DNA of 64,000 nucleotides from Trissonchulus latispiculum (taxonomy: Eukaryota; Nematoda; Enoplea; Enoplida; Ironidae). The notes beneath the pieces were generated by a model. The model did not search any database. It worked only from the letters and a program-made list of their open reading frames with translations, and had not been told where the DNA came from. The DNA lies in the NCBI GenBank assembly GCA_030248195.1, contig JASAND010021227.1, forward strand, positions 1 through 64,000, given 5' to 3'. A program made the position numbers and the translations under genes. The stretch's first letter is position 1; every line of letters starts with the position of its first letter. Positions 1 through 43,300 of this stretch are shown here, in pieces.

Positions 1-808
1 TTACCGCGGACCAAAAACAAGAATCGTTACCTACTTGTTTTTTTGACTATTTTTCAAAATGGATTGAATTGTTTCCCACTCGTAAGATGGATAGCACCAT
101 TGTTGCAAAACATTTCGTGGAGGATATTGTCTGTAGGCATGGATGTCCACGTACGTTGGTGTCCGACCAAGGCCGTGCTTTCACATCTAGTATGCTTCGT
201 CAGGTAGCCAGACAATTGAGGTGCCGTAAGGTGTCCACGGTTGCTTATCATCCACAGTCCAACGGGTTGGTGGAAAGGGCGATTCGGTCTGTAAAGGGTA
301 TCTTGTCCACATATGCCAACCGTGAGCTACAGATTGGGATTTATATTCGCCTTTTGCTGCTCTGGCATTAAGAACCTGCATCCAATCTTCCACTAAGTTT
401 ACTCCATTTGAGGTAATCTGCCGACAGCCTCGCCTACCGTTAGATACCTCAGTAATTGCCGTGAACAGCGGTGGTAGAAAAACAACACCTCACGAATACA
501 CCAAGAAGTTGGAACGGGGGATGGTTAAAGTATATAAGCAGGTAAAGATGCAGTTGAGTACCGCGCACCTAACCCAAAAACAGCAGTACGATAAAAATTC
601 CAGTTTGCCGACGTTCGCCATTGGCGATAGGGTACTTTTGAAAGCCACAAGGGCAAGGCGAAAGGGGCCTCGGTTTGAACAATGGCAACCAGGCTATGAG
701 ATAAAGCGACAGATATTTTCAGTTATTTATGAACTGAGGGACAGCATTAGTGGAAAGACTTTAAAGGTGCACAGTAACCAAATCATCAAGCATGTGCAGC
801 GGGACTGA
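1..808 (+). pseudogene. Ty3/gypsy integrase remnant (catalytic core and C-terminal domain)
   Basis: Remnant of a retrotransposon integrase, the enzyme that joins element cDNA to host DNA. Seen: an open stretch at 69-371 with SDQGRAF (second catalytic Asp) and YHPQSNGLVER (the Ty3/gypsy signature with the catalytic Glu). The first Asp region (FDYF-like) lies in another frame before base 69. A second open stretch at 461-808 contains GDRVLLKATRARRKGPRF and then SNQIIKHV, matching the GPY/F-type C-terminal domain of gypsy integrases. Bases 372-460 join the two parts only through frame changes, so the copy is dead. The left end is cut by the window. The family call is firm; the lineage within Ty3/gypsy is not. 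Confidence 0.85.
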
Positions 809-1031
809 ATAACGGATGTCAGTATATTTGAGGATGAGTGAACGAGCGATTGAGTCGAATAAATGCTGCTTGTGTCAAAGTTTTAACTCTGCCTGAACGG
901 CGTTCTGAGTGTGTATAAATGTTTGGTTTATGGGAACTTGGCCGGCCAGTATATCTGAACCTGTTTGTGCGTGCATGCATGTGCATGTCTATTTGTTTGT
1001 GTGTGCGTGTATGTGTTTGTGCCAGTTAGAC
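809..1031. other. Short GT-rich spacer between gypsy remnant and viral cassette
   Basis: No gene seen. Contains a GTGTGT/GCATGC-rich run at about 955-1020 directly before the cassette's first plausible ATG at 1032. This could be 5' leader or junction sequence; I see no TIR here. Confidence 0.4.
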
Positions 1032-2040
1032 ATGGATCCCGTTGTTCCATACCGCAGTGATAAGCTCAGTGATAAAGAAATTGAAAACAGTGGACCACTA
1101 TATGCCTACAAATCCTACCTGGAAGTTCTGTTAGTTCAAAAACTAACCACCAACAGATGGCTATGTTTTATAAGGATACAAAGTTTGAAGACTTGAGCTC
1201 AGGATCACTGAAATGGAGAGGAAAACCGTTCATGACAAATAATGGGTTGAACTGCTGGCTCCGTTACACGTGGATCTCTTTAAGCAAGACAGATACATGC
1301 TGAGTGATACTGGACTGATCATAGAACTACATAGAAATGCTGACAAGTTAGCCTTATTAAGTGATGGCACTGAGTATAAAATCAAAGTAGAAGATTTACG
1401 CTGGTATGTTTGGAAGGTGAAACCCCAAGAGTCTCTCAGCTTAGCTATTGAAATGGTTCTTCATAGTAATAATACAGCTAAATATCCAGTGCGCCGCATC
1501 AAGATGGTTACTCGACATATTGCCCCCAAATCACAAACAGTCGTTGAGAATTCTATTTTTGCTGGGCAGTTACCTAGGCGTGTAATCATGGCAATGGTAG
1601 ATTCAGAGGCGTTTAATGGATCATTCACAAAGAACCCTTTCAAATTTGAAACCTGTAAGATTACTGAACTATCGCTGAAATGTGGTGATGAGTACGTTCC
1701 AAAGCATCCTATGAAAATGGACTGGGAAGGCTTCAACTATACGGTTTTTATATGTACCTGTTCGAAGGAATCAATATGACAAACACCGACAGGGCAATTG
1801 ACATCAGCTATACAGACTACAGTAAAGGATATATTATCTTTGTTTTTGATTTAACTGCTGACAGTGTGGATGGAGGTGCAATGGAATTAATTAAAGAGGG
1901 TGATCTATCACTCTACATTCACGTTAAAAGAACCACTCGAGGATCACAAGCATGGTGTTGAAGTTATTATATATGGTGAATTTGATAATCTGATATCTAT
2001 CGATCACAACAGGATCCCATTTTATGACTACTCAATATGA
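1032..2040 (+). pseudogene. F54H12.2-like presumed structural protein of a Polinton/adintovirus-like element, frameshifted
   Basis: Belongs to the family usually annotated in invertebrates as 'uncharacterized protein F54H12.2-like', often found beside virus-type proteases. A capsid role is inference. The gene runs through several frames: 1032-about 1150 (PLYAYKSYLEVLL), about 1157-1265 (AMFYKDTKFEDL), 1270-about 1750 (KYPVRRIKM and FAGQLPRRVIMAMVD, strong family blocks), 1752-about 1945 (DYSKGYIIFVFDLT), then a last segment with IIYGEFDNLISID. The family's N-terminal roughly 90 residues before the YxAYLE block are not evident, so it is N-terminally short as well as frameshifted. The stop at 2038-2040 overlaps the protease ATG at 2037 (ATGA), as in a compact viral gene block. 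A homologous copy lies at 23.76-24.71 kb on the other strand. Confidence 0.8.
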
Positions 2041-2504
2041 ATACTTTGGAAATGTCAGAAACCCTGAATATGGACGTTTTGGCTAAACGATGTTTTCTGG
2101 GTGTTTTTCCTTGCGACAAACTTCCTGAAGTAATTAAGAGACCTGCCTGTGTTGTTCTAAACACTGATACTTCTACAGCACCAGGAGAACATTGGATCGC
2201 TATGTGTTTTGATCAGTATACAGAATACTTTGACAGCTATGGAATGGATCCTATTGAAGAATGCAAAGAGAAATATAAAATTGACAAATACAATTATTAC
2301 TGTTTACAAGATTTTGATACTGTTGTATGTGGTGAGTATTGTATATATTTTTTACACAAAAGGGTGCGGGGGTGGAGATTTGATGAGATCGTAGAGTATT
2401 TAAGGAAGAGAGGAGATAAAAACGATTCAGTTGTCAAGTGTTTTGTTGACAACCTGCGGTTCCGGAAGTGCTCTCCTCTATCTCAACATTGCAAGTGCAG
2501 ATAA
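2037..2504 (+). CDS. Adenain-like (Polinton-type) cysteine protease
   Basis: A 155-codon open frame for a C5/Ulp1-fold cysteine protease of the kind that processes capsid precursors in Polintons and adenovirus-like elements. Visible catalytic set: GEHWIAM (His52), EYFDSYG (Asp66), LQDFD (Gln91, oxyanion hole) and VVCGEYCIYF (Cys98 most likely the nucleophile). Order and spacing match the family, and the length is slightly under the usual 170-210 residues. It is the only uninterrupted gene of the cassette. The start overlaps the preceding stop (ATGA), and the next gene follows at once, its reading frame overlapping this gene's 3' end. The second copy at 23.3-23.7 kb is broken. Catalytic competence is inferred from motifs only. 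Confidence 0.8.
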   Translation: MNTLEMSETLNMDVLAKRCFLGVFPCDKLPEVIKRPACVVLNTDTSTAPGEHWIAMCFDQYTEYFDSYGMDPIEECKEKYKIDKYNYYCLQDFDTVVCGEYCIYFLHKRVRGWRFDEIVEYLRKRGDKNDSVVKCFVDNLRFRKCSPLSQHCKCR

Positions 2505-3004
2505 GAAAGTAGTCAATATAGTCCAGAAAGGAAATCTCAGTTCAAAGGTTAATCTCAAGGAGCTGCCTGATGGGGTATATAATCCTAAAGAGATTTAGCG
2601 GAGCCGTAATTACCATCAACTTATGTAAATTTCTGGTTTTCTCGACTGGTAGCTTTATGTGCATGGGAGCAAAAACAGTAGATGGAGGACTCCAAGCAGG
2701 ACAAGAAATGGCAAGAAAGTTTGGCTTAGCAATCGATCATCAAACAACACTAAACGTTGTTGTATCCCATCATCTTGGGTATGATGTAGACCTATCTGCA
2801 CTCTACAGGTATTTGAGGATGAAGCATGATGTCTGCTATGAACTAGAAATCTACAGTGGTATCCTATGGAAACAAGATGGGGGAACTATTAGACTGTTTT
2901 ATAATGGCAAATTTTTTGTAATTGGTTTATGTAGTAAAATTGATGCATGTAATCTAGCTAGTAATGTATGTATATTATGTCATGGTTTAAAAAATAAAGA
3001 TTAA
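2500..3004 (+). pseudogene. TATA-binding-protein-like protein with one frameshift
   Basis: Resembles TBP, the saddle-shaped DNA-binding factor that nucleates transcription. First repeat: VNIVQKGNLSSKVNL then GVYNPK in the frame starting at 2500. It continues after a one-base frame change near 2570-2590 as RFSGAVITI and FSTGSFMCMGAKT, matching TBP's YNPKRF...AVI and SSGKMVCTGAKS blocks. Second repeat: YELEIYSGILWK, GTIRLFYNGKFFVIGL, then an Ala-rich helix, matching TBP's GLIYR...IFVSGKVVLTGAK. The ordinary TBP core is about 180 residues and this is about 165. No ATG is obvious upstream in the first frame, so the start is unresolved. It lies right behind the protease and 12 bases before a hammerhead motif. 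A homologue lies at 22.78-23.31 kb. Homology is judged by eye. Confidence 0.72.
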
Positions 3005-3015
3005 AAAGAAAAAAA

Positions 3016-3071
3016 CCGTAACGGCAGCCTTAAGCCGTCTGACGAGACCCTTTGGCGGGGGTTGAAACGAT
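3016..3071 (+). ncRNA. Hammerhead ribozyme motif, stem-III-open, just 3' of the TBP-like gene
   Basis: Core CTGACGAG (3039-3046) and GAAAC (3064-3068) are present. Stem I pairs ACGGC (3021-3025) with GCCGT (3034-3038) over an 8-base loop. Stem II pairs GACCC with GGGTT (last pair G-U). Stem III is only 2-3 pairs (CGTA against ACG). The expected cleavage point follows GTA at 3020. All strictly conserved core bases are present, though CUGACGA is less common than CUGAUGA. The short stem III suggests weak activity as a monomer. It sits 12 bases after the TBP-like stop codon. Confidence 0.72.
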
Positions 3072-3079
3072 AAAAGCTA

Positions 3080-4320
3080 TCCGTCTTATATTTATTCAAT
3101 GTCTTATTTGAATTAATTACCTTGACTAGGTGAGAGCAGCTATCTATGGATCTGAGTTGACACAACATTTTCCTCCAGAACCCTCTATTTTCTACTACTA
3201 ATATAAGTTTCTTCAGACTGGGATTCTAAAAGATGTGGGGCAGATACAGAACCCTCCATTTTTTACTACTATTACAAGATTCCGTTGACTGGGTGTTTCT
3301 AGAATTTGGGTCCAGAGTCCTCCTTTTTGTACAAAGATATGATTCTGTCTATTATCTGTCTATTTGGATTATGAACCTAAAACGTGCATTTAACTAAAAG
3401 TTTAAGAAAACCCTCTCACGTTAAATCCTGTATATGTTGTCCAGTAAGGCTGTTTGCTCCAATTTCGTTAATACTTGTTTTGCCATGGACGTGATGTTCT
3501 ATTTATGGTGATCTGCATTGGTTTAACTGTTGTTCTTATTGCTATTAAGGGTGAAATTCTGTTAAGGGCGATTATCTAGGTTAATTTTAATTTCTTGTTT
3601 GTGACCACTGATGCCATGGATGCTACCTCTTCAATTAATGTGACAGAAGATCGTTATACATATTTATACAGCTTGGTCAGCACAATAGTCCTTTCACAAC
3701 AGCTTGACTTAATTTGATATTCTTAATTCACATGCTTTCTCTTGATTTCACCATGTGATGTTGGCGACTCTGCTTAAATTAGGTATATACTTTTCTTATT
3801 TGTCCAAGCAAATTCGTGTTTGTGAGTAATTCACTATTTATAGCAATTAAATTCTTGATAAATTTATCTAAACTGTTAGACTGAATGCGACAGATGGCAA
3901 CTATGTAAATTTTAACTCACATGTGGTCAGTTTGACAGTTCTCAGTTAATATGGTGTTTTGCCGTCACACACTGTCTGGTTTTTCACCAGACGTTCAGGA
4001 TACGCTGAAGGTAAATTTCTTTTTCATCAGGTTTTTATGAGTAATTATTTGGATTTTTTATTGTCATACAAAATATCAGCGATATACAATAAAAGTACAA
4101 TATACTAAAATACCAATAAATACAATTTTTGGTAGTACAGTTACAGTACACAGTGCAAGTACACGAGTACAAATAAAATAGCACTAGCAATAGCGAATAA
4201 AATAACATACAATACCAATGTTTATCAAGTTTAAGGACAATTTATTACACAGGATGTAGCAAGATAGGGTCGTACTCGTAAAACCCTCTGACTTCGTTGT
4301 ATCAACGGTTCAATTGAACC
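3080..4320. other. Unassigned AT-rich DNA
   Basis: No coding frame or RNA gene recognised. The near-duplicate phrases 'cagaaccctc' and 'ttttctactacta' around 3175-3300 suggest a decayed short tandem duplication. Confidence 0.5.
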
Positions 4321-4609
4321 ACCATAGCTCTTTTGCTTGATTCGATGATGGGATATCTTCATCAAACGCTACTTGCATGTAGATGACGTGAATGGGCTTA
4401 CGATACATCGGACAGGTGGGGGCAGTTGTAGTTTGATGCAATCTCTTGTTGTGCAGATGAGGTGATGGCACACGGATAAGATGTTCAGGTCCACTGTGTC
4501 ATAGCAGATCATGCAAAATTTCGTAGGCTCCTAAAAGCATTATGTAAAAATAAGTATAACAAGCTTATTTGCATGAATGGGTTGCCGTTGTCATTTTTCC
4601 TCTTATAAA

Positions 4610-5110
4610 CAAGAAATTTTCCGTTTCCAGTACCACGAAATCCGTAAATTTTCCGGAAATTTCGATTTCAGTTTCGAAATCAGCGTGGTCGAATTACAAT
4701 ATGACCAACTTTTGAAAGGAATCTGAGACAAAAGTTTTTTGGTCCAAAATCCGGGTTTTCGGGAATTCTCGGATTTTCAGTTTTTCGGCCATAACTTTCG
4801 CTAGGCGCATTTCCGGAAAATGTCGCAAGAAGGAAATTATTCAGCTCGACGAACTCTTTCATTTGAGTACCATATCGAGCACTTTCGGAAACATTTTTCA
4901 AAATCCGGAATTTTCCGGGTCCAATATCTCGAAATCCGGAAACTTTTCGGAAATTTCGATTTCATTTTCGAAATCAGCGCTGTCGAATCACCCTATGACC
5001 AACTTTTAAGCAAAATCGGAGACAAAAAATTTTTAAGTTTCCCTTGGTCCTCCCTTACCATTCAAAAAAATTCCGGGATTCGCCATTCCCGGAATCCGGG
5101 AAGTACCGAA
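4610..5110. repeat. Diverged tandem duplication rich in TTTCCGGAA
   Basis: A unit at about 4636-4745 (cgaaatccgtaaattttccg ... tatgaccaacttttg) recurs at about 4929-5040 with small changes. It sits in the intron between the RING exon and the previous exon. CCGG palindromes recur across 4,650-5,120. No coding function seen. Confidence 0.6.
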
Positions 5111-5251
5111 CTGCCCGCGCTTCCGGAAGTACTTTAGGTCACCCCCAACTCCCCCTGAAAATTTCAGCCGGATCGGTCTAGCCAATCAAAAGTTAGAGGG
5201 GGGACAAGAATCCGGAGAGTAATAAATAATAACGGACATACTCAACACAAA

Positions 5252-5282
5252 GGGTTGCCTTTTTGTGAAAAAGCGGCAACCC
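5252..5282. repeat. Short perfect hairpin shared with the centre of the 49.4-kb palindrome
   Basis: GGGTTGCC (5252-5259) and GGCAACCC (5275-5282) enclose a T-run/A-run that can also pair. The same stretch, with one base different, is at the exact middle of the palindromic MITE at 49,361-49,391. Confidence 0.7.
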
Positions 5283-6262
5283 AATAAATAAAATTAAGAT
5301 TAAGATTTTTAATGTTTTAATTTTTTCTAAACTGTAAATAAAATCAGACAACATTATTTTAATCACATTTTACCTGAATGTGTAGCATTACTCTACATTA
5401 TCAAGCTCTCCGAAACATTATAAGTTTTTAATTTCACTGAGCTTACGTTTTCATGACTGCCAGCAACTGCACAAATCTTATCATTTATGTGGCTGTCCTT
5501 AGTTTTCTTCAGGAACTGATCCAGCTGTTTTAAATGCTGGATCATCTGCTCAATCCACATCCACTTTTTTGTATTCGGTGAGATCTGGACCAAGTATTGA
5601 ATCCGACCATTAAAGATTCTCTAAAATCAAAAAATTATTGCTTAGAAAATATATAAACATAGTAAACAGGAAACATATTTATAAGACTATTTTAATTATT
5701 TGTAAAAAAATACTATTTTCTTTTATTTTTATTTTATTATTATGAATTATTTCACTCTGCTAAAATTTAACTGCTATGTTGTTTGTTTATATATTTACCC
5801 TTTTCACTATTTCAACGTTGGGTCGACGTTTGTTTTTTAAGTACGTCGCTAGGATGCCCAGCCCAGGATCCAGGTTTTACATCGGCTCCCATGTTGTCTC
5901 GTCATGATTTTTCCATTTGATGAGGAAAAATCTTCTCTCGTGTCGAAATTCCTAAAACACATTAAATTAACCTGTTTAATAATTGATCATTAATTCTGTT
6001 TATCAGAAATGCTGAAGTTTTGTTATATGTCAATTCACAAATTGTTTCTACTAAATTGTACAAAATTATTATTAAAGATGACATTATAGATTTTTATTAA
6101 ACTTAAATTTAAATTAGATTAAATCTTATAAACAAATTATTACAATTATATAGCTGAAATACCTATTTACTTAAAATTAACTTACATCGTCCAAAATGGC
6201 TTCAATTTCGAAGACTTGGTCCATGAGGTAGAGGTTTAGGTACACCAGACTGGTAAAATTAG

Positions 6263-8286
6263 TGGAGGACAGATACTAATCTTAGTTAATTCTACTGCGC
6301 TTATATACCTTTTTCTGAGCAGTTCTAGACAATGCTAATTGGTTGTGTTTCATTATTAGAATTTGTCGTCTAAACGAAATTTTGGTAATTGCGGGTTTTG
6401 GTGTATGCAGCTTTAGTTTCTTAAACAATGTTTAATGGAATGTAAATAATGTAATATAAATAATAATGTATCTAGATCAATTATATTTGGTTGATTTAGC
6501 TGTAGTATCTATTTTAAAGTTGTAGGTTAATAGAATTTTGGCTTCTTTACATTCAACAGTCTGAATGAAGTCTACTTGGCCTAATTTACTCAAACAAAAA
6601 TTATTCCGATTTGTAAAGGTTCAATGACAAGGTAATGTTGACAATATTGCTAGTTTCTGACTCTTTAGAATATGGGGTTATAATTGGGTCTATCTAAATT
6701 AGGTGCCAAGCAGTATCTTGAATTTATTTTTGATAAGTAATTTCCCATCTGTAACTTATAGTAGCCGTCTGATGAGACCTCCTGGCAGGAGTCGAAACGG
6801 TTAAAAAACATCTGGTAATCCGCAGCTTCCGCAGCCGTTTTGAACTAGACTGAATCCGCAGCCTGGGCTTTTTACACTAGAGATTGCTGCGTATTTTTCC
6901 TCGGAGCCGCCTTTTGCATCAACTTAAATTGTTGTTTTACTATAGTACTTTGTAAAACTAAAATTTCTTGCGCTAACATTTGAGATTTGAGATCGCCTTT
7001 TTGCCATGTACAACTGGCGGGGTTCTAGAGTTCTTAAAAGTCATCGATTTCTTCATTTTCAGTTTTCACCGATATTGTTGGCCTCATGGATCCGCAAAAC
7101 ACGAGTAGTTCCTAAATATTTTCTCCCATGGAAGTGTCACAAGTGATAAGAATTGTAGCTAACTTTATTTCTATTATGCAGGCTTTTAAAGTAATAATTT
7201 CTTTCGCTAAAATTTAGTATTGTACATAGAGCTGAAAAATAGGCATATATTTTCGTAAACTAAGGTTAAAGTGCCTAACTCCTATATTTTACTGTAATCT
7301 CCTGGAAAGTGACGCAGAGTATTAACTAACTAAAGCTTTATAACTTCCTCATTTCTCTGACTTCTTACAAAGCTGTCACTCAAAATCTCAGTTAAAGTTT
7401 TAATAGCTTAGAAATAACTGTTCAGAGAGAACTGCCAAAAGTGAGAGATTTTATGACATTTTGCACTTTTTATGAAACGTCACTAAGAATATTAGTGTCA
7501 AAACCCATGAATCAGTTAATGAGTGTTGCTAACTACAAAGAGTCCCCTCTAAATTTTGGAATATCCTGCGGATATTGCACCATTATTACTGACTAAGCAA
7601 ACAGCTATTCAAGGGCTAGGCGCTCTGCCTTTAGCGTCCAGTCGTCAGTGTTCCCCGAACTTAAGTCAGGTCTGACTTATGAAATGCCTATAATGCCTAT
7701 GTCGCTGTATGCTATTTCCAGTCATACATTGCTACTGATTATTCATGAACAAGATCTATGCCATGTATTTTATCATTAAAGAATTTGCGTTTAAATTTTA
7801 ATTATTGACCCAACTGCGATTCATACCCTGCAATAACAGGTCCGGTTTTGGGATTACCGAATTACTGGGCTAGACTATTACGCTTCCACAAACCCTGCGT
7901 CGGACCTCAACCTGCTACACAAGTTAATAGCCATCCAATGGTCATTCCGACATGTGTTAATCCCATGGAAGAGTTAGGAGATTTGTTCTGCTACTAAATG
8001 TTTGGAACTGTGGGAACTGTGTAGGAGCCATCGGATTGAAACTTTGAATGAATCTAACCTCAACTAGAAAGTGTAAATATCTATGAGCGATCTTTTTGCT
8101 GAGTCAATGATATATATTAATTTTCGAAGTTCACATTAAATTTACTATTTTATTTTGTAAAGAACTAGCCGTTTGCATGCATTAACAAGAGTACAGGCAT
8201 ACTCAATGTATTATCAAGACAAGGCACAAGCCTGACACATTCTCTGCACGCTAACGGCTGACCCCCCGCAAATTGGAACCCTAAAT
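6263..8286. other. Unassigned AT-rich DNA
   Basis: No coding region recognised. It holds a hammerhead-like motif (6,747-6,800) followed by CGCAGCC-rich sequence shared with the 9.6-kb locus. Confidence 0.5.
6747..6800 (+). ncRNA. Hammerhead-like motif with perfect core, stem I degraded
   Basis: CTGATGAG (6769-6776) and CGAAAC (6793-6798) match the hammerhead core exactly. Stem II pairs GAC with GTC and TCCT with AGGA around a GGC loop, with one bulged C. Stem III can pair CTGT (6749-6752) with ACGG (6797-6800). The upstream stem-I strand (ACTTATA) no longer pairs with GCCGT before the core, unlike the 3.0-kb motif, so cleavage is doubtful. No gene adjoins it. Confidence 0.6.
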
Positions 8287-22779: not shown

Positions 22780-23310
22780 AGGTTCAAAGCATCACATTTG
22801 TTAGTCACTCAAACCTACGATGAAAACTTTTCCATTATGAAAAAGTCTGTCTAATGGTACCACCCTTCATTTTCCAAATAACTCCACTATACAGCTCCAG
22901 CTCTAGACATGCACTAGGGTAGTCTTTTCCTAACTTTTCGTACAGAGCTTCCGAGTTCATTTCATATCCCAGATGATGAGATACAACGAAGTTGCAAACA
23001 GTTTGTTCCTTTCCCGATAGTCGGTCAGAAAGTCAGAAGTCACAAGTCAGAAATGCAAGCATTACATCTTCGATTTAGCTCCAAGACATAGGACGCTTCC
23101 TGTTAAAAATAGCAAAAATGTGCAAGGTTTCAGAGTAAGTATGACACCACTAAACCATCCAGGATAATAAACTGCACTCGGAATTGTAAGTAAGTCAAAC
23201 TTTGAGTCAAATTTGCCTTTCAATACCAAATTGACAATCTTCATAACCTCTACGCTGACAAGTCTGCAAAGAGGGGTAATTGACAATCTTCATAACCCCT
23301 ACGCTTACAA
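22780..23310 (-). pseudogene. TBP-like gene, second copy, decayed
   Basis: Homologue of the gene at 2,500-3,004. The first repeat is clear in 23,286-23,062: IVNLVLKGKFDSKFDLLTIP, YYPGWFSGVILTL, FLTGSVLCLGAKS, which aligns with the TBP first repeat (VNLGCKLDL, YNPKRF.AVI, SSGKMVCTGAKS). The second repeat is in other frames: ELELYSGVIWK and GGTIR, then stops. It contains a small internal duplication (GACAATCTTCATAACC at 23,234 and 23,282). It follows the protease remnant and precedes a hammerhead-like motif. Confidence 0.7.
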
Positions 23311-23329
23311 GTCTGCAAAGAGGGGTAAT

Positions 23330-23712
23330 ATTTATAAATTCGTAATCTGTCAACAAACTGTTTCACTATAGAATCATTCTTTCACTCCATTTTTCAAATA
23401 GTTTATAATTTCATCAAAAGTCAAACCTGCCAGCCTTATTATTAAGAATTATATTTATTGATTTTATATGCTTCTTTACATTCTTCTAGAGGATCCAATC
23501 CATAGCTATCCAAATACTCCGTGAACTCATCAAAATACATTGCAATCCAATGCCGTCCAGGAGCTACTGCAGGATCAGTATTAAGAACCAAACATGCAGG
23601 TCTATGATTGATTGATCGACGAACATTGGTCAGACGGGAATAACCCTAGAAAACATCTTTTTACCAACGGATCCCTTTTTAGTGTTTCAGCAATCTCGAG
23701 ACTGTTCATGGT
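23330..23712 (-). pseudogene. Adenain-like protease, second copy, decayed
   Basis: Begins MNSLEIAETLKRDPL near 23,710, matching the intact copy at 2,037 (MNTLEMSETLNMDVL). KRCFLG-like and HWIAM-like blocks follow, separated by stops and frame changes, and the Cys region is not intact. It keeps its place between the capsid-like and TBP-like genes. Confidence 0.65.
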
Positions 23713-23759
23713 GCATAGTCAAAGAACGGCGTCCGGTGTTGATGTAAATGTAAATTAAG

Positions 23760-24710
23760 TTATCAAATTCCCCTATAATTTCCACCCCTTGCGGGTGTGA
23801 GTTGAGAGGTTCTTTAAGGTGCATTTATAGAGATAGGTCACCTTCTCTAATTAACTCCATTGCTCCTCCACACTATCTGCTGTCGAATCAAATACAAAGA
23901 TTCTGCATCCTTCTTTATAGCCGTCATAGGAAATATTGATCCCTCTATCACTTTTAGCTAAATTGATCTCTTCAAACAAATGCATGTAAGGCATAGTGTA
24001 CTGGAACTTGTTCCAGTTCATTTTCATAGGATGCTTACGAATGTATTCATCTCCACACTTTAGAGATAATTCGATAATTCATTAATGTTACAATTTTCAA
24101 ACTGTAGTGGATTCTTGAAAAGAGCCATTGAATGCTTCGGAATAGACCATAACCATGACTACCCTTCTATGAAGTTGACCGGAAAATATTGAATTCTCCA
24201 CGATTCTTTGAGACTTCGGTGTAATATGTCTCGTTGCCATTTTAATACGTCGAACAGAATATTTTGCTGTATTGTTGTGTCTTAAAATCTTTTGGATAGC
24301 CAAACTTAATGATTCTTGAGGCTTCACTTTCCATTACATGCCATTTAATATCTTCTAGCCTCAGTTTGTATTTTGTGCCATCACTCATTAACAGGAACTT
24401 GTCCACGTTTCTATGTAACTCAATCATTAAATCCGTGTCACTTATAGCTGTCTTGTTTGAAAAGGTCGCAATGTGGAGCCACCAATTCAACGCCTTTGTT
24501 TGTCATAAATGGTTTACCTCGTCATTTCATTGCATTACTTGTAATATCATTGAAATTTTCCAAAGTATCTTTATAAAACATTGCGAGTTGTTGATGATTA
24601 GACTCATACTCCATGTGCCTATTGCTGAAGTGTTTGGTTGCTGTGATGATATTCAAAAGCTTGGTCGCATTGATTTATATAGGGGGAAGGGACAGTGGAG
24701 AAATTTTTAG
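23760..24710 (-). pseudogene. F54H12.2-like presumed structural protein, second copy, decayed
   Basis: Homologue of the gene at 1,032-2,040. Recognisable minus-strand blocks: FYKDTLENF (about 24,570), RGKPFMTNKG, then DLMIELHRNVDKFLLMSDGT (24,440 region), then KPQESLSLAIQKIL, KYSVRRIKMATRHI and FSGQLHRRVVMVMVY (24,327-24,140). The later part, down to the YGEFDNL equivalent near 23,770, is in other frames. Several stops. Same order as the first cassette. Confidence 0.75.
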
Positions 24711-25339: not shown

Positions 25340-26640
25340 TTGATATTAATTTTGTCTAAGTCTAATATCACTGATAAATATAAAACTGACAAAACTATTA
25401 CTATACATAGTGCATATAAAATATTTTTGTGTAATTTTAGAGAATGTTTATATTATTCTTGCTGCTTTATGCATCGCTGGTGTAGTGTACCACCTCCATT
25501 AAGAGGGGTTAGACGAAGAGTACACGAAGGAGTGAAATCATACAATGCACACGTCAGTGCTGATTCAAATAATACTCACTATGGAAACCAACACTATAAT
25601 TCATACGGGAACTGTGTAATCTCAAGCGATGACCAAGTGTCAGCATACGACGACAGCAATGGAACTGAAACTGGGTGGAATGGTGAAGAACATTAATTTT
25701 TATGAGAACTTGTAATCCCAAGAGAGTTAGTAACCGACAACAGCAGTAGGACTGAAACCGAACATGGTACTGATGGAACTGAATATGCGAATCAAAACCT
25801 TTATGATGAACGTAATCCCAATTTATCCCATGATTAATGCTGATCAGCACTATCCCAATGGGTTCCACAAATACAGAGTTATAGAGTCGACCATCGTCAA
25901 TATGATAGTCACTGTGAATGGTACAACCGTGATCAAAATCAATATATAAATGGAGATGATTATCAAGAGCAAAATATAGGGAGAGTGTCTGAGGAAGCTT
26001 TAAATATATCTAGAAATCATGTTCCTACAGAATATAGGCTACCTCATTTTTACAATACCGCTGAAACCTCATTATAACCTCCATGATTCAGGAAATGACG
26101 ACTACGTACAAGTTCAATGGGCTCAGGCTGGGCCCAGCTGGCAGGAAACTTTCAACGTCTATGACTATGAACAAATTCAGGGAGCTCATTGCAGTCAATC
26201 AGCATCCAATAACGCCTATGACTACCGACAAAATCAGGGAGCTAATTATAGTCAGCCAGCCTACAATAACACCTATGGCTATCAACAAATTCCGGGGGCT
26301 CATTACAGTCAACCAGCCTCCAATAACGCCAATGGCTATCAACAGATTCAGGGAGCTCATTGTAGGCAATCAGCCTCCAATAACTCCTATGACTACCGAC
26401 AAAATCAGGGAATTAATTAAAGTTAGCCAGCCTCCAATAGCACCAATGGCTATCAACAGATTCAGGGAGCTCATTGCAGTCAATCAGCCTCCAATAACGC
26501 CTATGACTAACGTCAAAATCAGTCAGTTAATTATAGTCAGCCAGCCTCCAATAACACCAATGGCTATCAACAGGTTCAGGGAAGTCATTGCAATCCAATG
26601 GGATCAAATCCACTAGGGTCTGTTTTGTGGGGGGGAGGGT
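25340..26640 (+). pseudogene. Tyr/Asn/Gln-rich repeat protein, left arm
   Basis: No known family. Two reading-frame blocks carry it: 25,340-25,696 (ends GTETGWNGEEH, with NYxGN-rich sequence) and 26,019-26,420, where a 19-residue unit repeats (for example YGYQQIPGAHYSQPASNNA). Between them, coding-like sequence continues in other frames (QYINGDDYQEQNIGRV), so introns or frameshifts intervene. A stop (26,418-26,420) and later TAAs break the array. Composition is like an intrinsically disordered, prion-like or adhesive protein; that is inference. It lies just downstream of the polymerase B end. The right arm carries the inverted copy. Confidence 0.5.
26160..26600 (+). repeat. 57-bp minisatellite, left array (about 8 units)
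   Basis: Units of 57 bp encode 19 residues. Two unit types interleave: YDYRQNQGxxYSQPA and xGYQQIxGAHxxQ. Confidence 0.85.
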
Positions 26641-26810
26641 GGTTGACTAGGGTCTCTTTTGTGGGGGTCACTGGGGTCTGATTTGTATGGGGGTAGGCCG
26701 TTATCGTGCAGATGATGTCTCCAGCCTGATAGCTAAGAGTGCTGCGTTTGTCACACTCTTAGTTATTATGTACTCTTGGTAGTATTAATACTACTGCAGG
26801 TTATTGGAGG

Positions 26811-28460
26811 ATGTCTGACCGCAATGAGCCCCCGGAATTTGTTGATAGCCGTAGGTGTTATTGTAGGCTGGCTGACTTCAATGAGCCCCCTGAATCTGTT
26901 GATAGCCATTGGTGTTATTGGAGGCTGACTGACTGCAATGAGATTCTGAATTTGTTGATAGCGATAGGTGTTATTGTAGGCTGGTTGACTGTAATGAGCC
27001 CCCGGAATTTGTTGACAGCCATAGGTGTCATTGGAGGCTGGCTGACTATAATTAACTCCCTGATTTTGTCGGTAGTCATAGGCTTATTGGAGGCTGATTG
27101 ACTGCAGTGAGCTCCCTGAATCTGTTGATAGCCATTGGTGTTATTGGAGGCTGATTGATTGCAATGAGTTCCCTGAACCTGTTGATAGCCATTGGTGTTA
27201 TTGGAGGCTGGCTGACTATAATTAACTGACTGATTTTGTCGGTAGTCATAGGCGTTATTGGAGGCTGATTGACTGCAATGAGCTCCCTGAATCTGTTGAT
27301 AGCCATTGGTGCTATTGGAGGCTGGCTAACTATAATTAATTCCCTGATTTTGTCGGTAGTCATAGGAGTTATTGGAGGCTGATTGCCTACAATGAGCTCC
27401 CTGAATCTGTTGATAGCCATTGGTGTTATTGGAGGCTGGTTGACTGTAATGAGCCGCCGGAATTTGTTGATAGCCATAGGTGTTATTGTAGGCTGGCTGA
27501 CTATAATTAGCTCCCTGATTTTGTCGGTAGTCATAGGCGTTATTGGAGGCTGATTGACTGCAATGAGCTCCCTGAATCTGTTGATAGCCATTGGTGCTAT
27601 TGGAGGCTGGCTAACTATAATTAATTCCCTGATTTTGTCGGTAGTCATAGGAGTTATTGGAGGCTGATTGCCTACAATGAGCCCCCGGAATTTGTTGATA
27701 GCCGTAGGTGTTATTGTAGGCTGGCTGACTTCAATGAGCCCCCTGAATCTGTTGATAGCCATTGGTGTTATTGGAGGCTGACTGACTGCAATGAGATTCT
27801 GAATTTGTTGATAGCGATAGGTGTTATTGTAGGCTGGTTGACTGTAATGAGCCCCCGGAATTTGTTGACAGCCATAGGTGTCATTGGAGGCTGGCTGACT
27901 ATAATTAACTCCCTGATTTTGTCGGTAGTCATAGGCTTATTGGAGGCTGATTGACTGCAGTGAGCTCCCTGAATCTGTTGATAGCCATTGGTGTTATTGG
28001 AGGCTGATTGATTGCAATGAGTTCCCTGAACCTGTTGATAGCCATTGGTGTTATTGGAGGCTGGCTGACTATAATTAACTGACTGATTTTGTCGGTAGTC
28101 ATAGGCGTTATTGGAGGCTGATTGACTGCAATGAGCTCCCTGAATCTGTTGATAGCCATTGGTGCTATTGGAGGCTGGCTAACTATAATTAATTCCCTGA
28201 TTTTGTCGGTAGTCATAGGAGTTATTGGAGGCTGATTGCCTACAATGAGCTCCCTGAATCTGTTGATAGCCATTGGTGTTATTGGAGGCTGGTTGACTGT
28301 AATGAGCCGCCGGAATTTGTTGATAGCCATAGGTGTTATTGTAGGCTGGCTGACTATAATTAGCTCCCTGATTTTGTCGGTAGTCATAGGCGTTATTGGA
28401 TGCTGATTGATTGCAATGAGCTCCCTGAATTTGTTCATAGTCATAGACGTTGAAAGTTTC
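26811..28460 (-). repeat. 57-bp minisatellite, right array (about 29 units) with an 853-bp higher-order duplication
   Basis: The same 57-bp units as the left array, inverted. A block starting AGATTCTGAATTTGTTG at 26,941 recurs at 27,794, so about 15 units were duplicated as one 853-bp segment. Long open frames on both strands here are products of the period being a multiple of three. Confidence 0.85.
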
Positions 28461-29260
28461 CTGCCAGCTGGGCCCAGCCTGAGCCCATTGAACTTGTACG
28501 TAGTCGTCATTTCCTGAGTCATGGAGGTTATAATGAGGTTTCAGCGGTATTGTAAAAATGAGGTAGCCTATATTCTGTAGGAACATGATTTCTAGATATA
28601 TTTAAAGCTTCCTCAGACACTCTCCCTATATTTTGCTCTTGATAATCATCTCCATTTATATATTGATTTTGATCACGGTTGTACCATTCACAGTGACTAT
28701 CATATTGAGGATGGTCGACTCTATAACTCTGTATTTGTGGAACCCATTGGGATAGTGCTGATCAGCATTAATCATGGGATAAATTGGGATTACGTTCATC
28801 ATAAAGGTTTTGATTCGCATATTCAGTTCCATCAGTACCGTGTTCGGTTTCAGTCCTACTGCTGTTGTCGGTTACTAACTCTCTTGGGATTACAAGTTCT
28901 CATAAAAATTAATGTTCTTCACCATTCCACCCAGTTTCAGTTCCATTGCTGTCGTCGTATGCTGACACTTGGTCATCGCTTGAGATTACACAGTTCCCGT
29001 ATGAATTATAGTGTTGGTTTTCATAGTGAGTATTATTTGAATCAGCACTGACGTGTGCATTGTATGATTTCACTCCTTCGTGTACTCTTCGTCTAACCCC
29101 TGTTAAGGAGGTGGTACACTACACCAGCGATGCATAAAGCAGCAAGAATAATATAAACATTCTCTAAAATTACACAAAAATATTTTATATGCACTATGTA
29201 TAGTAATAGTTTTGTCAGTTTTATATTTATCAGTGATATTAGACTTAGACAAAATTAATA
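26820..29260 (-). pseudogene. Tyr/Asn/Gln-rich repeat protein, right arm
   Basis: Inverted copy of the left-arm gene, with the peptide frame at 28,586-28,179 (SWQETFNVYDYEQIQGAH, then 19-residue units). A stop ends the frame at about 28,179, and the array continues in other frames. The 5' blocks, the inverse of 25,340-25,960, lie at about 29,250-28,650. The array is three to four times longer than on the left. Confidence 0.5.
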
Positions 29261-40369: not shown

Positions 40370-43300
40370 TTATCTCTTTTCAAATACTGTTCGCAAGTGT
40401 TCTTTAATAATTTCTTCTACAGAGTGTCCAGGAAACTGTATGGCCTGTTCACAGCTTCTCGATGTAAGCGGTTTGAAGAAAGGGGCATTGTGGGTATTGT
40501 TTCTGGTCATTGGCGATATCTTCGGCATTCTGGGTGGTAGGCGAAATGTAACTAGGAGTTTGTCGTCACGCATAAACACTTTCCTATTATTATTATTACT
40601 AAGTTCCCTCCTAGTAGTTGAGCCCACCGGCTGACCTGGGGGTCGCGTTGTCAGGCTCAGCAGTGGTGGGATGCTCTTTAGGTTTTGGGAGGAGTTGTTT
40701 CGCAAATGGTAATTGTCTTGGACAGACCACTGTCGACGCTGTAACGGCTGTCTACGCGTAAATGGAATCATATAGTGCCGTGGATTGGCAGACCCACCTC
40801 CTAGTTTGGCAAAGGCGGTCTGCTGTTGACGGCGTGGAGGCGGGGGTTTCCATCTACCATGTTGATGCTCAGTGGGGGTCATCGATTTATTTGAAGGAGG
40901 GCCTCTTAGGTGGCGGTACCATATATCCGTTGATCCTTTGATAGCCGCAGAGATACACCTCCTCCGTATACCTTTCAGTCGTTGTCTGCCAATGCCAATC
41001 ATTCCAAGGATTGGGTCGTTGGCAATATCCCATGTGCCCAACGATCCTACAAGCACCGCATCTAGATATACAGCATAGCCCTGCTGTTCTAAGCTATGAA
41101 CTTCACTTCCGTATTTCTCCAGTTTCCTTGTGCGGGCTTTAGCAAATGCTGTTTCGAAAGAGGAGTTAACAATAGAGATGTCCAGTAGAAAGGCCACTTT
41201 TTGGGTTTTGCTAAAGGCCACAATGTCCGGTCTAGTTTTCCATTCGGTTTCTTTTATCTGTCGGTTGACTTTTACATTAAATGCGGACTTTGGAATAGCT
41301 CGTTCTATTACATTCTGGACGGAATTATGACGATCAGTATACAGGCTGCCATGATAACGGATGCAGTTATTGAGAACATGACCCAAGGTTTCTAGCCGAT
41401 GACCACACCTTCTGCAAGATTTGTCTCCAGGAAGAATACTTCTTACGGAGATTTTATTTAATCTTGCAGTGTGGATAAAGTAGTAGTCCTTCGGTCGTAA
41501 TCCGTCGCCTGTATATAAGAAATGCCCCTGCTCTGTGTTTCTGGCTGCATTTCTTAGCACTAATCCTTGGCTTGGAGAGTTAAGCAACTGGACATTATAA
41601 TAGGCACCTATTGCTCTTCTTAAGGCTGCAACCGCCCCTCTTAAACCTTGACGACCAATCGTTAATATTTCATTAGTTCCCGGGATAGACACCGATAGTT
41701 TGAACTCATCTCCATCCGGTACCGCAACAATCTGCACATAGCGACTGAGCTTTCTTAAGTCCTGCCTAAAGGCAGTCCATTGAGTGAGTCGTGGTGCTTT
41801 CCTATGGATTGTTACAGTACCATTCAGGTAGTTGCAGATCGATTGAGCACTATCGTCGTCGATCATGGCACGGGGATGGATTCCTAGTGGGATAGATTCA
41901 GAGGGTTTAAGTGATGTAGTTCGCGCAGCCTCTTTCAGTTGATTCCAAGCAACTGACTTAATTACGGGACAACCGGACCATAATAAATTCATACTTCTGG
42001 CAATGCGCAAAATGGAATGTTCCAGAGTAGTCTCCGTCAATCCTAGCGCACCAATACTCGTAGAACCATAAAGGTAGCCGTTCGCCATTTGTTCTGGAGA
42101 GTCCAGAACTTTCGCTTTTATCAAGTATCTAATGGTCTCATCAAAAGTATCAAGCTCCCTCGTCGTTGGGAAAGAAACGAATCTGAGTAGGTGGGTGAGC
42201 TTTGACTGAATTTGAGTCTTATAGACAGTTAACTTTTGCCACGGAAGCAGGCGGCTTTCAAAAACGTCCTTAGCTTCTTTCATACACCGAGTGAGGACCG
42301 TTCTTGGTGACTGGTCCACCTCAATCCCTTCAGATACCCCTAGGTATTTGTAGGCTTCTCCTTCAGACAGTGCTGGAATATCTTGTCCACAAAGTTGGAA
42401 TGTGTGCAAATTAACTTTGTTATTCACAATAACTAGGGATCCGCATTTGGAGGGGTTAAATGCTAGACCAGCCCACTCTGCTGCTTCTTGAGCTCGATCT
42501 AGTTGTGACTGTAGGTTTTCTTCGTTCGTCGCTGTTATAACGAGATCGTCAGCATATGCTAGGGCCGGGATCTCGATATCAAAAAGGGGAAGTGCTGCTT
42601 CGCGATTGAATTTCACAGAATTAAGCACTGATTCGAGGACTAAATTAAACAGGATGGGGGAAGAGGGGTCTCCTTGCTTTACACCTCTCAGGATTTCAAT
42701 CGCCTCCGTTTGGCCTGTGCTAGTTGAGATCCGCATGGTGGCATTGGTATAAAAGTCAGAAACAATTGAGCAAATTGTCTCCTTTAGACCCGTCTTCTGT
42801 AATGTTGCCATAATCAAGTTATGGGGTACTGATCCAAAGGCATCGCTAAGATCTAGCCATGCCAGGGCAACCTTCCGGTTCCTCATTTTTCCTTCGATGA
42901 TAGCAGATCGGAGGAGAAATGAGTGCTCACTGACTCCATCTGTGGGTGCAAATCCTTTCTGTAGATGGTCTGAAAGAATTTTGTTTCTTTTACTCCAGGA
43001 GTATATTCTGGCTGCCCACAATGCCGAATACAATCGATAAATACAGGGCTGTAAACTTAGGAGCCGCCAGTTGGTTACCACAGACGGATCAGATTTCTTG
43101 TAAGCGAGAATAGAGTGGGCCTCCTTCCATTGTCTTGGTATTTTCCTATGAAACAGGCATCTATTATAGATTTCAGTAAGCAATACGGCCCCGGGGTCGA
43201 GTTTCCGTAACGCAGCATATGTAACTTTATCATTTCCTGGAGCGGAATTCTGCATGCCTCTCAACTTTGCCCATACTTCGTCAGATGTAAATACTCGATC

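Follow-up and report, generated by a model that had tools for sequence, protein, structure and literature searches.

A decayed capsid-protease-TBP cassette

The window analysed here is the whole stretch of 64,000 nucleotides at positions 1 to 64,000 (forward strand) of contig JASAND010021227.1, from the enoplid nematode Trissonchulus latispiculum (assembly GCA_030248195.1). Near its left end it carries the remains of a virus-like cassette in which capsid and protease genes are followed by a gene resembling the TATA-binding protein (TBP). Judged by its sequence, this is what decay has left of the right-hand side of a Polinton/Maverick (a DNA transposon that is virus-like and replicates itself), with the following features (labels beginning with L denote loci, those beginning with C contigs):

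1058..2039, + strand: capsid gene remnant (tblastn with the L035 capsid protein, 75-100% identity in pieces; PF21738 under cut-off)
2037..2549, + strand: adenain-like cysteine protease gene (PF00770; open reading frame (ORF) 2037-2504)
2506..3004, + strand: TBP-like gene, frame-broken (ORF 2570-3004 holds part of repeat 1 and the whole of repeat 2)
3016..3072, + strand: hammerhead-ribozyme motif directly behind the TBP gene, slightly decayed (pattern match, alignment A5, covariation)
3144..4536, + strand: patches of the variable region from the TBP gene to the right inverted repeat (68-86% identity to L033/L034)
6762..6926, + strand: what remains of the right terminal inverted repeat (70-84% identity to the repeats of L036, L048, L032, L034 and L018), together with a second hammerhead core (6769-6798); probably marks the right end of the window element

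A preliminary description had placed three genes, the first labelled F54H12.2-like, in tight order between 1032 and 3071, and the window ORFs and Pfam matches recover all of them in that order. The capsid piece 1270-1779 matched DJR-like_dom (PF21738, E 5.6e-5; 22.9 bits, under the curated cut-off of 27), ORF 2037-2504 matched Peptidase_C5 (PF00770, E 5.1e-5; 23.5 bits, above the cut-off of 21.3) and ORF 2570-3004 matched TBP in two stretches (PF00352, E 3.5e-12; 46.4 bits against a cut-off of 22.9). The last ORF alone also matched 22 TBP sequences in the PDB (E 5.6e-4 to 0.0075).

The window copy is dead, with its capsid gene in several frames, a stop inside the protease gene and a frame change in the TBP gene. 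Alignment of 1058-3069 with L031 covers 2028 positions and gives 92.7% DNA identity. Intact copies are matched only from 1058 onwards, so the ATG at 1032, with which the region had been thought to begin, is not part of the capsid gene; this gene lacks its first ~114 codons and its remaining pieces lie in more than one frame. The right edge of the region, 3071, coincides with the end of the hammerhead motif 3016-3072. The protease had been called intact, with an overlapping ATGA junction: the junction is real and present also in intact copies, but the match to 171-amino-acid (aa) relatives, spanning 2037-2549, contains one internal stop. The TBP gene does have both repeats, and a frame change near 2588-2595 puts its first ~30 codons outside the frame of ORF 2570-3004; against the intact L035 protein, the window TBP shows 90% identity over 135 residues and, in the other frame, 83% over 30.

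Intact relatives and their assignment to Polintons

The window's own assembly (733.8 Mb, 21,732 contigs) yielded 896 first-look candidates for the window TBP piece, the best 150 of which were scored, all at E <= 3.6e-34 and 127 of them, by our count, without an internal stop. The window copy belongs to a large, still partly intact family (family 1). In intact relatives the capsid gene is followed by the protease gene with a 4-bp overlap and then by a TBP-like gene that overlaps the protease end and mostly encodes 164-166 aa. The element on C6307, pieced together from three separate stretches, measures 16,115 bp (60,928-77,042), ends in 191-bp terminal inverted repeats that are 100% identical and start with AG (AGTAGATG...), and is flanked on both sides by a perfect 6-bp target duplication, TACAAC (one element tested). 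The genes of L035 are, in order:

innexin, a gap-junction protein (L035:814-1635, E 3.2e-19); 149-aa ORF (o149a); zinc-finger and NADAR-domain gene (L035:2171-2857, NADAR E 1.3e-34); second 149-aa ORF (o149b)
ATPase-like gene; 114-aa ORF (o114); 203-aa ORF (o203); integrase with chromodomain (INT); 275-aa ORF (o275); 139-aa ORF (o139)
capsid protein (444 aa); protease (171 aa); TBP-like protein (164 aa)

The integrase (L035:5057-6136) matched rve (E 2.4e-12) and Chromo (E 3.4e-9), and the TBP-like protein matched PF00352 in two stretches (E 1.7e-22). Three other genes stayed under the cut-offs of their profiles: the capsid (PF21738, E 4.7e-5; 23.2 bits against 27), the protease (PF00770, 19.5 bits against 21.3) and the ATPase-like gene, which matched only Pox_A32 (E 0.0095), an FtsK/A32-type packaging ATPase. 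A 775-aa ORF on the opposite strand beside the left repeat matched Endonuclease_7 (E 1.4e-6) and no family B DNA polymerase (PolB) profile or PDB entry; from PolB-like motifs seen by eye we tentatively take it to be a protein-primed PolB. No profile identified the 275-aa protein, and no RNA polymerase gene was recognised among the element genes.

The relatives are regarded as Polintons because of their target duplication, inverted repeats and gene content. With the reservation that the capsid and ATPase profile scores are weak and that no PolB profile matches, the sequence features place the element with Polintons/Mavericks, which it resembles in its 6-bp duplication, AG-starting inverted repeats, rve integrase with chromodomain, probable double-jelly-roll capsid and adenain-like protease. 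Vertebrate Mavericks likewise have a 6-bp duplication and AG-type ends (PMC8097293).

A search of the protein database gave 21 relatives of the protease, of which some contain PF00770; across 22 proteins His52, Gln91 and Cys98, which we assume to be the catalytic residues, are invariant, and FDSYG is nearly so. Searches of IMG/VR with the TBP, protease and capsid pieces and with protease alignment A1 found no relative, PHROGs gave no match for the window protease, TBP and capsid pieces, and NCBIfam gave none for the protease and capsid pieces; the TBP piece matched nine NCBIfam TBP models, all under their own cut-offs (E 5.6e-8 to 8.6e-4).

Several further observations concern these relatives. 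Innexin and NADAR genes were also found at L033:883-1740 (E 1.7e-20) and L045:801-1499 (E 3.3e-37), respectively. TBP genes occur in close divergent pairs at L040:5093-6442, L039:4425-6590 and on contig C17620; these pairs may reflect nested insertions, element copies in inverted orientation or errors of assembly. One subfamily has an extra 130-aa ORF behind the capsid gene (L041:9353-9745, L047:3411-3803), which has no Pfam match.

The TBP-like gene as a regular gene under purifying selection

Linkage was scored where a TBP match lay within 1.2 kb downstream of a protease match on the same strand, judged against 150 listed matches of the window TBP and 10 listed matches of a plant TBP. A TBP gene lay directly downstream in 105 of the best 150 protease matches (1064 candidates). 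Eight of the remaining 45 were sampled and all eight had a TBP gene, with open frames of 150-166 aa in six and no open frame of 80 aa in L053 and L060. Among pairs with synonymous divergence (dS) of 0.05-2, the ratio of non-synonymous to synonymous divergence (dN/dS) of the TBP-like gene had a median of 0.13 (28 unique ORFs, 176 usable of 378 pairs, all below 0.5), alongside 0.10 for the protease (135 of 190 pairs) and 0.06 for the capsid (3 of 15 pairs). Purifying selection acts on the TBP-like gene, which belongs to the regular gene set of the family.

Two further Polinton families in the same genome, each represented by one locus, also have a TBP gene, placed elsewhere. In L051 it encodes 171 aa, matches PF00352 in two stretches (E 5.9e-36) and lies between a broken NADAR gene and the capsid gene. 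In L052 it encodes 404 aa (L052:3598-4812, - strand), with a TBP domain in two stretches (E 3.4e-29) fused to a C-terminal part that resembles the 275-aa protein of family 1 (E 6e-9); the L052 capsid protein is 27% identical to that of L035. Frames of 380-427 aa, the L052 size, were counted by us in 28 of the 150 matches listed in the plant-TBP search; L052 is the one of these that was read.

The window TBP piece alone had no match in the public protein database. An alignment of its relatives found five public proteins, four of 165-173 aa (41-44% identity) and one of 253 aa (30%), and as a profile it matched 35 TBP-containing sequences in the PDB (best E 3.1e-21). The predicted model of one public homologue (P0026) was confident, with a predicted local distance difference test score of 92.9 and a predicted template-modelling score of 0.80. 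An unrelated fold is rejected by the TBP profile matches in three families and by the alignment profile against the PDB. The host's own TBP lies on C14517, where two exons match plant TBP at 81% and 67% identity, and it reads nearly like the human TBP chain. The Polinton TBPs share 24-30% identity with plant TBP, and the means between their families are also 24-30%; taken together, the identities between families and to plant TBP span 24-31%.

These results bear out the preliminary description in placing a TBP homologue in a Polinton-like lineage, given the target duplication, inverted repeats, gene content and purifying selection in relatives. The TBP profile match is significant in both the window and an intact relative (E 3.5e-12 and 1.7e-22), and the profiles, linkage, selection and distinct host TBP speak against an unrelated fold or a host gene. 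Its pointer to giant viruses, as carriers of TBP-like genes, did not lead to a source: the IMG/VR scans gave no relative, and the mirusvirus TBP cluster occurs in 0% of Nucleocytoviricota genomes (PMC10132985).

Conserved and lost TBP residues

Thirty-six intact proteins were surveyed, 35 of family 1 and that of L051. We assume the placement of the known TBP sites on the present alignment, as well as the roles of the asparagines and threonines. The first, second and fourth intercalating phenylalanines and both central asparagines are invariant (36/36), and each of the two glutamates facing TFIIB is retained in 35 of 36. The basic helix of repeat 1 is shortened, its end being deleted in 35 of 36, and the proline after the third phenylalanine is replaced by Ser in 34 and by Asn in one, the only Pro being that of L051. 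In the literature, four phenylalanines intercalate, this proline favours T at the first TATA position, and the yeast acidic residues E184 and E188 serve TFIIB (PMC12529657). By this comparison of sequences, the DNA-kinking and TFIIB-facing residues appear mostly retained.

ATAAAA boxes upstream of element genes

In four related elements, ATAAAA was the top enriched hexamer upstream of the genes, occurring in 24 of 42 upstream segments against 69 of 880 overlapping controls, and in one element alone in 8 of 13 against 3 of 70. It is strand-biased, with 14, 15, 15 and 7 occurrences on the + strand of the four elements and 3, 5, 2 and 3 on the - strand. The base before ATAAAA in five family-1 elements was C 16, A 10, G 2 and T 1 (background A 19, C 12, T 8, G 6); it was T 2 and G 1 at three sites in L051 and A at all three in L052. 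This preference would fit a private box read by a TBP that has lost its proline, although it is far from proof. Elements with a proline-bearing TBP would be predicted to use TATAAAA, a prediction based on the three sites in L051 and the three in L052.

Hammerhead motifs at the 3' side

In 25 of 30 loci the first 300 nt behind the TBP match contain a hammerhead core. It is preceded by an A-rich tract, with 56-84% A over the last 25 nt in all 18 listed cases and, by our reading, an AATAAA in 17 of the 18. Each inverted repeat of the C6307 element also has a hammerhead on its inner edge, oriented outward. Besides the window motifs (3016-3072 and 6769-6798), copies lie at L036:1851-1907 and L048:6063-6119.

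The window pattern match has an expectation of 0.01 per window. A structural scan for the type III core (CUGANGA, GAAA, three helices and a UH cleavage site) gave 33 matches, 25 of them distinct, against a mean of 0.05 per mononucleotide-shuffled set, and did not list the window copy at 3016-3072. Across 26 sequences and 12 base pairs, 97.1% of cells were paired and two-sided changes occurred at 8 of the 12 pairs; covariation was 0.151 against 0.089 in shuffles, with none of 500 shuffles as high. Four of the nine two-sided cells come, by our reading, from L045:1572-1628, a hammerhead with other helix letters in a NADAR-ATPase-like gap, which ends one base before the ATPase ATG. The Rfam type III model (RF00008) reached 36.2 bits (E 2.5e-6 for 401 bases), short of the 48.5 set for gathering; at the gathering score Rfam found no hammerhead in the window or in eight loci, and at E <= 5 the model had no match in window positions 1-5300. 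Plain RNA folding of 3008-3075 did not produce a hammerhead and did not stand out from shuffled sequences (z -1.03). The hammerheads may trim or end transcripts.

A proposed role in element transcription, and its alternatives

Host RNA polymerase II is probably directed to the element genes by a promoter-recognition factor that the element itself encodes. The preliminary description had suggested that this lineage brings its own initiation factor; a regular TBP-like gene is indeed present, and its working as such a factor is what we infer. The TBP-like protein would fold as a small TBP saddle, bind and bend the [C/A]ATAAAA boxes ahead of the element genes, and pass them to the host TFIIB and RNA polymerase II, the element having no recognised RNA polymerase gene. 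Transcription of the element would then start apart from host TFIID, including at boxes inside overlapping upstream genes, and the 3'-side hammerheads would trim or end the outward transcripts. A more far-reaching version, which we regard as possible but doubtful, is a Polinton clade with a self-contained expression kit, comprising a proline-less TBP, a private [C/A]ATAAAA promoter that is used also within overlapping genes, and hammerhead-made 3' ends after an A-rich tract; both mRNA ends would be set by the element and the polymerase alone borrowed.

A number of observations weigh against a promoter-recognition role. In the protein, the third phenylalanine is Tyr in 28 of 36 and Phe in only 8, none of the 36 retains the threonine of repeat 1 and 25 have also lost its counterpart in repeat 2, and the fused L052 protein lacks both the third phenylalanine and the first glutamate. 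Among the boxes, none was found upstream of o203 and INT in L035, the GATAAAA before the TBP gene is missing in L045 and L044 and its codons show no special conservation, and the pooled P values are too good because the compared elements are related. Moreover, ATAAAA overlaps or trails the upstream stop for NADAR, o149b, ATPase and o114 and lies 11 bases ahead of it for o149a; these positions at, behind or near a stop make a role as poly(A) signal possible for all five.

That the ATAAAA enrichment reflects merely the poly(A) signals of preceding genes, with the TBP-like protein acting elsewhere, is an alternative that we judge unlikely. Besides these five sites, it would account for the AATAAA just before the hammerhead behind the TBP gene (17/18). 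It does not suit the sites of o275, capsid and o139 (as ATATAAA), which precede the upstream stop by 59-119 bases, a distance too great for poly(A) signals. Six subfamilies moreover share four of the five codons at the o139 site and the Ile codon at the o275 site, while among 943 conserved codons such identity is seen in 16%; this codon test could not score the capsid and protease sites.

Rather improbable is a decoy or repressor acting on host TATA boxes or on TFIIB, TFIIA, NC2 or Mot1, which would favour the element or counter host defence and involve no promoters of its own. In its favour, most DNA-contact and TFIIB-facing residues are kept while the basic helix of repeat 1 is shortened, and the elements bear other candidates for host manipulation, innexin and NADAR, but a strand-biased box ahead of the element's own genes would be left unexplained. 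There is only a slim chance that the protein is a component of the virion or of DNA structure (a minor capsid or genome-binding protein) with a recycled TBP fold. The gene sits between or behind the capsid and protease genes, and in L052 the TBP is joined to a region resembling the 275-aa protein, which is taken as a minor capsid protein by position only; against this, the DNA-kinking residues are conserved and the 275-aa protein matches no profile. Host genomes contain pseudogenes, but reading the window piece as a gene or TBP pseudogene of the host, lying by chance next to a dead Polinton, is refuted and can be discarded, as the host TBP on C14517 is distinct (the Polinton TBPs are only 24-30% identical to its type, measured against plant TBP) and many intact copies are linked and under selection.

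Comparison with known systems

Relative to known Polintons, the present element adds a TBP-like gene behind the protease, hammerheads at its ends, innexin and NADAR. In the open-licence Polinton papers searched by term, TATA and TBP are unmentioned ('tata' in PMC12220804 is an author name), and no report of TBP or hammerheads in Polintons was found.

TBPs encoded by viruses have been described for African swine fever virus and mirusviruses as well as for herpesviruses. Among the last is ORF24 of Kaposi's sarcoma-associated herpesvirus, a viral TBP-like protein of a kind found in beta- and gammaherpesviruses, which mimics TBP on its own TATA variant with host RNA polymerase II (PMC12529657). 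ORF24 sets a precedent for a viral mimic that takes the place of host TBP and reads a TATA variant of its own. It is a large protein that depends on five partners and has no TFIIB-facing glutamates (PMC12529657); the Polinton TBP, at 164-166 aa, keeps these glutamates in 35 of 36. A TBP gene occurs in 59% of mirusvirus genomes, which differ in having HK97-type capsids and far larger genomes (431.5 kb in one contiguous genome; PMC10132985), and sporadically in mirus-like elements of Cymbomonas, which have no double-jelly-roll capsid gene (PMC10675990). With cellular TBP and TBP-related factors the Polinton protein shares both repeats, the four-phenylalanine pattern and the central asparagines; it is shorter, its gene has no introns in the copies read, and family 1 lacks the proline after the third phenylalanine. 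Hammerheads at the ends of mobile elements are known from Penelope-like elements, Terminons and retrozymes, which are retroelements (PMC6431247); the present ones sit in a DNA transposon, where they follow the TBP gene and line the inner edges of the inverted repeats, pointing outward.

Many eukaryotic DNA viruses are often traced back to Polintons (PMC7805220). A 16-kb element that brings along a general transcription factor and has TATA-like boxes ahead of its genes would make the switching-on of Polinton genes directly testable. It would extend virus-encoded TBPs to one of the small DNA elements found in animals, represented in this genome by three families, and if the proposed role is true such elements may express their genes from private promoters.

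Other features of the window

A match to an rve integrase at 3-371 (E 3.7e-9) was rejected as a gene of the element, since the element integrase has no tblastn match in the window at E <= 1e-4. The window also holds a further copy of the cassette:

22810..24605, - strand: second, older decayed capsid-protease-TBP cassette (tblastn with L035 proteins; identities in pieces of 55-74% for capsid, 48-56% for protease and 53-77% for TBP)

Elsewhere, a 1759-aa ORF at 40370-45649 (- strand) looks by eye like a non-LTR (long terminal repeat) retrotransposon reverse transcriptase, and at 26083-28522 ORFs on both strands are built from a repeated 'PITPMAINRFRELI' unit.

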